From positions 124,001 to 188,000 of the forward strand of contig NZ_FOAN01000009.1 in assembly GCF_900109525.1 (NCBI RefSeq): 64,000 bases of DNA. Reading direction: 5' to 3'. The notes under the pieces were generated by a model. The model made no database searches, had not been told where the DNA came from, and saw nothing but the letters and a program-made list of their open reading frames with translations. Position numbers and translations under genes: made by a program. Shown here in pieces: positions 32,677-36,006 of this stretch (its first letter is position 1; every line of letters begins with the position of its first letter). This DNA is from Allobosea lupini. GTDB lineage: Bacteria > Pseudomonadota > Alphaproteobacteria > Rhizobiales > Beijerinckiaceae.

Positions 32677-33723
<1,047 letters not shown>

Positions 33724-33753
33724 GGGTTGATCCACGCTTCCTGATTTCGCGAC

Positions 33754-33776
33754 GGCCCGGCTGCCGCCGGGCCTTT
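33754..33776 (+). terminator. Intrinsic terminator after ilvC
   Basis: GGCCCGGC-TGCC-GCCGGGCC is a perfect 8-bp stem with a 4-base loop, followed by TTT, 30 bases after the ilvC stop. Confidence 0.65.
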
Positions 33777-33778
33777 GG

Positions 33779-33820
33779 GATCAAGGCCAAGGCTCAGGTC
33801 GACAAGACCAAGAACTGAGG
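33779..33820 (+). repeat. Duplicated copy of the ilvC 3' end
   Basis: This 42-base segment matches 33684-33725, the last 13 codons plus stop of ilvC, at all but three adjacent positions (GCCCTG in ilvC, GCTCAG here). It is separated from ilvC by the terminator. No reading frame enters it from upstream, so it is a gene-tail relic, not a gene. Confidence 0.85.
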
Positions 33821-33902
33821 CGAGCGCTGGACTTCGCATCGCGATTCAACGCGATGGCAAGCTGATTCCGGAAAAGCTTGCAGTCGCTTGAAATTGAAAG
33901 GG

Positions 33903-33930
33903 AACGGGCGCCTCGACGGGCGCCCGTTTC
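33903..33930 (+). terminator. Second hairpin downstream of ilvC
   Basis: AACGGGCGCC (33903-33912) and GGCGCCCGTT (33919-33928) pair perfectly, followed by a short T-run. It follows the duplicated ilvC tail, consistent with the duplicated block having once carried a terminator of its own. Confidence 0.6.
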
Positions 33931-33951
33931 GCGTTGAGGGAACCCGGCTTG

Positions 33952-33976
33952 GGAACCGGCCCCCGCGCTAGACGTT
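33952..33976 (+). promoter_or_regulatory. EcfG-type general stress response promoter
   Basis: GGAAC (33952-33956), a 16-base spacer, then CGTT (33973-33976). This equals the consensus known for the alphaproteobacterial general stress sigma factor EcfG (GGAAC-N16/17-CGTT). It lies 32 bases upstream of the first small membrane-protein gene at 34009, a proper distance for a promoter with a short leader. Confidence 0.65.
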
Positions 33977-34008
33977 GATGCTCCAGTCAATACATGCAGG
34001 AGCGTGCG

Positions 34009-34194
34009 ATGACCGGCCAGGACGAACTGAGAGAGAGGGCGATCGAACGGCTGCATCAACGCCATGCCCGGCACGGGCTGGCCGATGTCGCCAAGCCTGT
34101 CTCGTGGGAGGATCAGCTGCCGATCCTGCTCCTGGGTGGATTTCTCGCCGTCACGCTGCTGGCGAGCGTGCTCATCCGCGCCGTCGGAGGCTGA
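34009..34194 (+). CDS. Small single-span membrane protein, unknown function (1 of 3)
   Basis: A 61-residue protein that I cannot assign to a family. A charged, helical N-terminal part (MTGQDELRERAIERLHQRHA, then RHGLADVAKPVSWEDQ) precedes one C-terminal membrane helix at about residues 36-57 (PILLLGGFLAVTLLASVLI). The ATG at 34009 follows AGGAG with seven bases between; an in-frame ATG at 33994 lacks such a site. An EcfG-type promoter lies just upstream. Its stop overlaps the ATG of the next small gene (ATGA-type TGATG at 34192-34196). Function may relate to envelope stress, by promoter only. Confidence 0.65.
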   Translation: MTGQDELRERAIERLHQRHARHGLADVAKPVSWEDQLPILLLGGFLAVTLLASVLIRAVGG

Positions 34195-34439
34195 TGGCGA
34201 AGGAGCAAATGGAGGCGGTCATGCAAGACGACGTCAAGGCGCGCGAAGCGCGCATTCCTGAGCAGGGTGGCGATCCGATTCCGCCGATGCGGGCGGATGT
34301 CCATTCCAGCGCCGACCCGGCGGTCGAGACCCCGGTGGAGGCGAGGCAGGGCTTCCTCGACCGGCCAGTGCTGGTTGTCCTGGTCGCAGGCCTGGCGCTC
34401 GCGGTGGTCGGCTGGATCGTCGCGGGGGTGTGGGCCTAA
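34194..34439 (+). CDS. Small single-span membrane protein, unknown function (2 of 3)
   Basis: An 81-residue protein with no recognised family. The first 52 residues are hydrophilic and Pro/acid-rich (REARIPEQGGDPIPPMRADV, then HSSADPAVETPVEARQG). One membrane helix follows at about residues 57-79 (RPVLVVLVAGLALAVVGWIV) and ends almost at the C-terminus, a tail-anchor-like layout. The ATG shares a base with the stop of the preceding gene, so the two are coupled. It has the same topology as its neighbour but no clear sequence similarity to it. Confidence 0.62.
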   Translation: MAKEQMEAVMQDDVKAREARIPEQGGDPIPPMRADVHSSADPAVETPVEARQGFLDRPVLVVLVAGLALAVVGWIVAGVWA

Positions 34440-34510
34440 CAGAGCGAGCGCCAATTTCGGCGAAAGCATTCACTGACGAAACAGACCAAGCTGAACAGAT
34501 GGAGGCGATG

Positions 34511-34624
34511 ATGACACCGATCCGGTCGATGCCTGCGTCCCAGGGGTTTCAGTTCAAGCTCGCACATCTGGCGCTGGGCGCCTCGTTCGCACTGCTGACA
34601 ATGATCGTCTTCGGCGTGTTGTAG
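34511..34624 (+). CDS. Very small membrane protein, unknown function (3 of 3)
   Basis: A 37-residue peptide, starting MTPIRSMPASQGFQFKLAHL and consisting mostly of one membrane helix (LALGASFALLTMIVFGVL). GGAGG at 34501-34505 lies five bases before the ATG at 34511; ATG at 34508 is also possible. The good ribosome site and the two preceding genes of like topology support it as real. It begins 71 bases after the second small gene. No function is known. Confidence 0.55.
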   Translation: MTPIRSMPASQGFQFKLAHLALGASFALLTMIVFGVL

Positions 34625-35537: not shown

Positions 35538-35625
35538 CAGACGCTGTCACTGATCGCGAAAGATTCTGACAGCGGCTGACAGCCAGAGGGTGTCCTGTTC
35601 CGTCTCACAACGACGGAGACAGGTC

Positions 35626-36006
35626 ATGATCAGCTTCATCATCGGATCGGCCAAGCCTGTGCTCGCGATGTTCGACGTGCTTGGCCGCATTCTCGGCGCG
35701 CTCGACAATTGGCTGCAGTCGCGCCGCGACTACCGCACCCTCTGCGACATGAGCGAACGCGATCTGCGCGATCTCGGACTGCGCGACAGCGATCTGCGCG
35801 ACGCCACGGCGGCGCCGTTCTTCGGCAACCCGACCGGCATCATCTCGCTGCGCGTCGAGGAGCGGCGCGGTCTTGCGGGTGGGGAAAGCGTGGATCAGGC
35901 GCTGCGCGGCCTGAGCGCCGGAACCTCGGTTTCACCCGAGCGGATCGCTAAAGAATCCGACAGCGCGGAGGGCGGCCGGATGGTCCTTCTCAGGGCGGCC
36001 GAATGA
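35626..36006 (+). CDS. DUF1127 domain protein
   Basis: A 126-residue protein. The DUF1127 core is at about residues 30-60, reading DYRTLCDMSERDLRDLGLRD followed by a second DLRDAT. The basic-acidic helix with the L-x-D-[MI]-x-x-x-x-L-x-D-[IL]-G-[IL] rhythm is diagnostic. In other alphaproteobacteria such short proteins influence RNA turnover and phosphate or stress responses. A hydrophobic segment (residues 1-27) precedes the core and a 65-residue polar tail follows; both exceed the usual 45-residue form. The ATG at 35626 follows GGAGACAGG. It sits directly after the AraC gene and 25 bases before a small Cys-rich gene. Confidence 0.8.
   Translation: MISFIIGSAKPVLAMFDVLGRILGALDNWLQSRRDYRTLCDMSERDLRDLGLRDSDLRDATAAPFFGNPTGIISLRVEERRGLAGGESVDQALRGLSAGTSVSPERIAKESDSAEGGRMVLLRAAE

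Follow-up and report, generated by a model that had tools for sequence, protein, structure and literature searches.

Small membrane proteins with a single helix recur among bacterial regulators: AcrZ, MgtS and KdpF are small single-helix membrane subunits or regulators, and YqjD carries a C-terminal inner-membrane helix and is regulated by stress. ElaB, which like YqjD belongs to DUF883, is described as C-tail-anchored and stress-regulated (PMC6389858), and CydX as a component that cytochrome bd oxidase needs (PMC6005532). A census of Sinorhizobium small proteins reports two membrane microproteins that are conserved in the order (PMC10117765). The general stress regulon of alphaproteobacteria is that of EcfG (sigma-EcfG/PhyR/NepR); the motif given for EcfG1 of R. 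etli is GGAAC-N16-CGTT (PMC3892343) and that given for Sphingomonas is GGAAC-N17-20-GTT (PMC6599016).

The locus described here lies in a stretch of 64,000 nucleotides from a Bosea genome, that of Allobosea lupini (contig NZ_FOAN01000009.1, positions 124,001 to 188,000 of the forward strand), which we call the window and whose numbering is used throughout. Three short genes, ORF1 to ORF3, follow a promoter motif identical to that of R. etli EcfG1, and PhyR, NepR and an EcfG-type sigma factor are present in the genome; in contrast to the established regulon, control of the window operon is inferred from sequence conservation. As proposed for the window proteins, ElaB and YqjD combine a C-terminal inner-membrane helix with stress regulation, but the window proteins have no DUF883 match, a shorter tail without confident structure and a different conserved motif. 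A single helix within fewer than 80 residues is shared with CydX, AcrZ, MgtS and KdpF, whereas the window holds three such genes in a row with no neighbouring target complex (the sequence comparison covered Pfam, NCBIfam and the PDB). ORF3 is similar in size and hydrophobicity to stress-induced membrane peptides of the TisB type, although no antitoxin RNA was seen in Rfam and ORF3 has conserved operon partners. No paper on these genes was found among the matches listed in full-text searches of the main texts of freely readable papers; published regulon tables may carry distant homologues as hypothetical proteins. The EcfG regulon itself is already known, and the new part is the small-protein families: a concrete, widely conserved and unannotated candidate family can be named, its coordinates given, its start corrected and a conserved motif offered for mutation.

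Layout and coding character of the locus

The sequence-only reading had placed the GGAAC-N16-CGTT motif 32 bases upstream of a run of three frames, and motif and distance, counted from the end of CGTT to the ATG of ORF1, were confirmed in the sequence (Table 1). The lengths of 61, 81 and 37 residues that it assigned hold for ORF1 and ORF3; the 81-residue frame (34194-34439) exists, but ORF2 most likely starts at 34221 and has 72 residues. There, GGAGG is followed after 5 nt by ATG, and start and ribosome site are conserved in relatives. The start at 34194 was rejected on the ribosome site and on the relatives, five of which (L004, L005, L006, L007, L008) have no equivalent in-frame start. Ribosome sites were indeed found for all three genes, but the proposed start-stop overlap between ORF1 and ORF2 is incidental, because the start of ORF2 is most likely 34221. 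Measured from this start, the gap between the two genes is 26 nt in the window and 25-50 nt over 12 genomes, with no overlap.

Table 1. Features of the locus (window positions unless a named locus is given)
Feature	Position	Strand	Basis and remarks
ilvC end	33723		5' of hairpin and promoter
Probable ilvC terminator, GC-rich hairpin then T	33903..33928	+	by eye; just 5' of promoter
EcfG-type promoter GGAAC-N16-CGTT	33952..33976	+	read from sequence; 12-genome alignment
-35-side element GGAAC	33952-33956	+	followed by 16 bases
CGTT element	33973-33976	+	
ORF1 ribosome site AGGAG	33998..34002	+	sequence; present in 12/12 genomes
ORF1, 61 aa, one C-terminal membrane helix	34009..34194	+	dN/dS 0.21; hydropathy
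ORF2 ribosome site GGAGG	34211..34215	+	sequence and relatives
ORF2, 72 aa (corrected start)	34221..34439	+	dN/dS 0.16; relatives; structure model
ORF3 ribosome site GGAGG	34501..34505	+	sequence; GGAGG in the 8 genomes compared
ORF3, 37-aa membrane microprotein	34511..34624	+	dN/dS 0.29; relatives
Second ORF2-family copies	L087:4149-5000, L090:4359-5210, L095:4132-5200		behind PRC-barrel-like gene

Loss of conservation of the three frames had been set beforehand as an observation that would refute the module; instead, gene order and purifying selection are kept in 12 genomes. Pooled dN/dS over ten Bosea genomes is 0.21 for ORF1, 0.16 for ORF2 and 0.29 for ORF3, and rises to 0.35, 0.19 and 0.40, respectively, when the two divergent genomes G017 and G050 are included. 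In each of the three frames, variation is greatest at third codon positions. On this comparative evidence, ORF1, ORF2 and ORF3 look like genes under purifying selection. Their occurrence in order in related genomes, which had also been proposed as a check, is borne out, and the architecture persists even in Bosea clades with strongly diverged ORF1 and ORF3.

The arms of the hairpin between ilvC and the promoter are largely kept in the 12-genome alignment; the hairpin is not in the output of a strict terminator scan around the operon, in which no terminator satisfied the criteria. About 50 bases past the ilvC stop, at 33775-33820, the final ~40 bases of the ilvC coding sequence (33681-33724) recur as a near copy. 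Among the named loci L056-L093, two exact copies of an 18-base stretch of it were found only in L057 by an exact search, which misses diverged copies. The minus strand at 33754-33931 gives a sub-threshold Rfam match to Collinsella-1 RNA (25.3 bits against a gathering score of 35), probably a chance match in GC-rich DNA. On the downstream side, the AraC gene was rejected as a member of the operon; in five relatives (L059, L060, L062, L063, L068), it was not found in the interval from ORF3 to the DUF1127-like gene. The DUF1127-like gene, recognized by eye at 35590-36006, lies past the AraC gene on the same strand as the operon, and such a gene is near the module in ten named loci.

Promoter motif and the EcfG-type regulator

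Genome-wide, the bare N16 motif shows no enrichment (63 matches against 76 for the reversed pattern), and therefore its mere presence proves little. These counts leave room for a chance motif, which is made unlikely by conservation in place. In an alignment of 12 upstream regions, anchored on ORF1 rather than on the motif, all 9 positions of GGAAC and CGTT are invariant, against 2 of the 16 spacer positions (8 of the 16 are alike in at least 10 of the 12 genomes) and 2 of the 20 bases 5' of the motif. The leader is well kept too, with 10 of the 20 bases 3' of CGTT invariant, and conservation is therefore wider than the promoter alone. The first base of the motif lies 56-58 nt upstream of the ORF1 ATG in all 12 genomes.

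A search of the 450 nt upstream of ORF2 gave the motif at 28 of 30 Bosea places, as against 1 of 150 control windows; the truncated locus L002 was mis-anchored in this count, yet has the motif. At these 30 places there were no matches to the reversed pattern, none with a spacer of 12-13 nt and none on the opposite strand; a 20-21-nt spacer gave 1.

The genome contains one NepR match over the cut-off. Beside nepR are an ECF sigma factor and PhyR, the latter with both the sigma-like domains and the receiver; from its domains and its position next to nepR and phyR, this sigma factor is assigned to the EcfG type. In this genome, nepR-sigma and a DUF883_C gene are also preceded by the motif. Membership of the EcfG regulon was judged by a GGAAC-N16/17-CGTT motif positioned to drive the gene and by a genome that encodes EcfG, NepR and PhyR, and both are found here. 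The row of three genes is thus very probably an EcfG-controlled operon, as read from these sequence comparisons.

The module in Bosea and the ORF2 family beyond it

The genus sample comprised 61 congeneric genomes, including that of the window, and overlaps heavily with a set of 44 named loci. Single-sequence searches detected ORF1 in 12 and ORF2 in 54 of the 61 genomes; seven had no ORF2 match at E 0.001. ORF3 was matched in 13 at E up to 0.1, namely the 12 ORF1 genomes and one weak hit. The order promoter-ORF1-ORF2-ORF3 is constant in all 12 ORF1-positive genomes. The 44 named loci were scanned by architecture: an ORF counted if it had a ribosome site, was of the right size and carried a hydrophobic stretch at its C-terminal end. 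ORF2 is followed by an ORF3-like microprotein (one with a GTG start) in all 31 loci linked to ilvC and in none of the 13 others; of 1558 control windows, 1 satisfied the same criterion. Twenty of the 31 ilvC-linked loci have an ORF1-like gene, 17 by the strict rule plus L082, L092 and L093, whose ribosome site is weaker; the remaining 11 have the promoter directly upstream of ORF2 and no ORF1-like gene.

Promoter, ORF2 and ORF3 were found together in 48 of the 61 genomes (45 by scan, the truncated locus of G005, scored separately, and the diverged G004 and G006), and the promoter with all three genes in 31 (28 by scan plus 3). ORF1 is therefore missing from many Bosea modules. Two genomes (G048, G011) have the promoter, ORF1 and ORF2, with no ORF3-like ORF found, and four (G045, G053, G057, G043) have only other ORF2-family copies. 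ORF3, at 30-42 residues, is recognizable by architecture in 45 genomes, compared with 12 strong genomes from the single-sequence search. Because the switch and two genes are kept in most sampled Bosea and the middle gene reaches further, the module is probably a real, uncharacterized piece of the bacterial stress response.

Additional ORF2-family copies occur in the genus. Across all 70 Bosea places of the family, the motif is near-upstream in 50 by scan and in five more (G005, L227-L230), and the reversed pattern in 0 of the 65 places scored; 15 of the 70 have no strict motif close upstream. Eleven of these 15 form a paralogue class with [VI]E[GS]RQGF, in which the motif is absent upstream in 8 and located 0.8-1.5 kb upstream in 3. 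A PRC-barrel-like gene, identified by eye, precedes three named paralogues (L087, L090, L095), and the motif lies 60-64 nt ahead of that gene. The ORF2-family copy is separated from it by a CsbD gene in L087 and L095 (Pfam-confirmed in L095, by eye in L087). Further copies in L088, L089 and L095 lie a few kilobases from Ku-/LigD-like DNA end-joining genes (Ku is Pfam-confirmed in L095, the rest are by eye). In G043 (L226:1123-1950), the family gene comes after a gene that by eye looks like YciF/DUF892 and begins ~50 nt past an EcfG-type motif.

The sequence-only reading had regarded the three genes as the best candidate in the window for an undescribed system. No family match was found in Pfam, NCBIfam or the PDB, but ORF2 is not private to the operon and belongs to an order-wide family. 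At E up to 0.001 per genome, its profile found a match in 48 of the 397 genomes searched from the order; these matches cover 24 of the 142 genera sampled, Bosea among them. The shared core is EARQGxxGxPVLxVL plus the helix, and the family, defined here by this core directly before one membrane helix, includes the ORF2 of the window. Over 30 Bosea sequences, the 12 named positions of EARQGFL--PVL-VL are invariant, within a membrane-face consensus ETPxEARQGFLxRPVLxVL; in 27 aligned members across genera, G44 and L54 are the only invariant residues, with R42, Q43, L51 and L60 close to invariant. Many relatives carry proline-rich C-terminal extensions. Of the 47 places listed outside Bosea, the best 28 were examined and 21 have the promoter motif upstream; 140 control windows gave 5, and the opposite strand of the 28 places gave 3. 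The 7 places of these 28 without it include five that rank 21st-25th and two strong matches (L103, L108).

A function based on neighbouring genes was rejected. Among 20 order-level loci, no adjoining gene is shared by the whole set and none names a target; pncB-like, BrkB/YihY and electron-transfer-flavoprotein-like genes (mostly by eye) recur within groups, and two of the 20 loci are near an EcfG-type sigma gene. Outside Bosea, in another taxonomic family, an ORF2-family gene shares a locus (L169:5917-10293) with Pfam-identified PhyR and ECF sigma factor genes and with DUF883-like and holin-like genes, both below the Pfam cut-off (DUF883 just below); L158 is similar by eye. Class-wide, the core was matched in 17 of 385 genomes, that of the window included. 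Since the motif lies within 300 nt upstream at 4 of the 18 class-level places outside this genome, and 4 others, of the EARQG...GHMRxVL type, are without it, no shared function is claimed there. A plasmid search with one distant ORF2-family member gave no match. Profiles of the other two genes, searched in 297 genomes of the order, gave beyond the genome of the window one weak match for ORF1 and two for ORF3, all in longer frames, and none of the 17 scorable loci of the 20 has an ORF3-like ORF after ORF2. ORF1 and ORF3 thus appear, from these searches, to be lineage-specific.

Protein properties, proposed function and rival readings

Each protein was claimed to have a single C-terminal membrane helix, and hydropathy supports one C-terminal hydrophobic stretch in each, for ORF2 together with a structure model. 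The ORF2 protein consists of a low-confidence N-terminal tail, then EARQGFLDRPVL, then one membrane helix. Its model contains one confident helix (residues 48-71), with a pLDDT of about 97 over residues 51-70, and a low-confidence tail; as the pTM is 0.35, the helix alone is meaningful. In all 30 aligned rows of ORF2 and in 30 of 31 of ORF3, arginine and lysine are more frequent ahead of the helix than past it, which suggests an N-in/C-out orientation for both, although little protein lies past the helix. For ORF1, they are more frequent before the helix in 11 of 21 rows and equal on both sides in 10.

The claim that the proteins match no family holds for the searches made in Pfam, NCBIfam and the PDB, in which nothing exceeded threshold. 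Pfam and NCBIfam were searched with the window proteins, Pfam also with all aligned members and NCBIfam with the ORF2 family, and no match passed a curated cut-off; PDB sequences compared with all three profiles likewise gave nothing over the cut-off (best E 0.2). Below threshold, the nearest family of ORF1 is DUF2374 (14.4 bits for the window protein against a cut-off of 27), with a best E of 0.0049 over 21 ORF1 rows and 7 rows at 0.1 or less, and two ORF2 relatives approach DotU/TssL (E 0.0063). DUF883 (PF05957, PF19029) is not matched by the window proteins, 27 ORF2-family members, 21 ORF1 rows or 31 ORF3 rows.

In the mechanism that we propose, PhyR would take up NepR under stress and free the EcfG-type sigma factor. 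RNA polymerase would then start just past 33976, beyond the ilvC terminator, and the presumably induced genes would be co-transcribed into one messenger, from which three single-pass inner-membrane proteins of 61, 72 and 37 residues would be made. ORF2 would be the core: its cytoplasmic tail would be flexible, its conserved stretch with arginine would lie at the membrane face, and its one helix has a predicted N-in/C-out topology; ORF3 would be its constant small helix partner. The proteins may assemble in the membrane, where the membrane-face stretch of ORF2 would bind and adjust an inner-membrane protein during stress. We infer this action by analogy with other small membrane regulators. The whole statement, an EcfG operon of three single-pass inner-membrane small proteins whose ORF2 stretch adjusts a membrane partner in stress, appears to us reasonably probable; the partner-modulating mechanism as such is put forward tentatively, at somewhat less than an even chance. 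A dedicated single-helix hetero-oligomer of all three proteins, switched on by the general stress response, centred on the order-wide ORF2 family and docking through its EARQG motif at the membrane face on a common inner-membrane machine, is doubtful; if true, it would be a so far unseen membrane output of EcfG in Hyphomicrobiales.

Some alternatives differ in what the proteins do. They might have no specific target and accumulate in the inner membrane under stress, altering its physical state while the membrane-face arginines hold acidic lipids. The free variation of the N-terminal tails and of ORF1, while the hydrophobic helices persist, fits this idea, as do the only two ORF2 residues, G44 and L54, that are invariant across genera, with four nearly so; however, the 12 positions that are invariant in the 30 Bosea sequences are more than lipid binding should need, and we regard it as unlikely. 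That the N-terminal tails tether ribosomes or other bodies to the membrane, as in tail-anchored stress proteins like E. coli ElaB/YqjD, is less likely still. Layout (a tail and a C-terminal helix) and kind of regulon are the same, and in L169 the family gene adjoins the sub-threshold DUF883-like gene in the phyR-sigma locus, but neither the window proteins nor their relatives match DUF883, the ORF2 tail is modelled without confident structure and the ORF3 tail is short. ORF3, and perhaps the others, could also be stress-induced membrane-depolarizing growth-arrest peptides like TisB, given that ORF3 is 30-42 residues long, mostly hydrophobic and apparently stress-controlled. Against this quite improbable reading, the Rfam search for an antitoxin RNA gave one match, upstream and below the gathering score, and within the genus ORF3 was matched only in genomes with ORF1 and ORF2, bar the one weak hit.

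Other alternatives concern the switch or the genes themselves. GGAAC-type -35 elements are common to related ECF sigma factors, so another of these might read the promoter, and the signal answered by the operon would then be narrower than general stress. The two elements are, however, those of the R. etli EcfG1 consensus (PMC3892343), and nepR-sigma and a DUF883_C gene of this genome have the same motif in front of them, which leaves this reading slightly behind even the TisB-like one. Spurious frames are abundant in GC-rich DNA, but that these are chance ORFs, or an RNA leader, is hardly credible in view of dN/dS values of 0.16-0.29 over ten genomes, the third-position variation and the conserved ribosome sites.

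In the proposed EcfG-controlled, partner-adjusting module, ORF1 would be an optional, fast-evolving third helix. In two Bosea genomes, at L063 (4762-4947) and L064 (4763-4948), the N-terminal tail of ORF1 is strikingly rich in histidine and possibly metal-binding.
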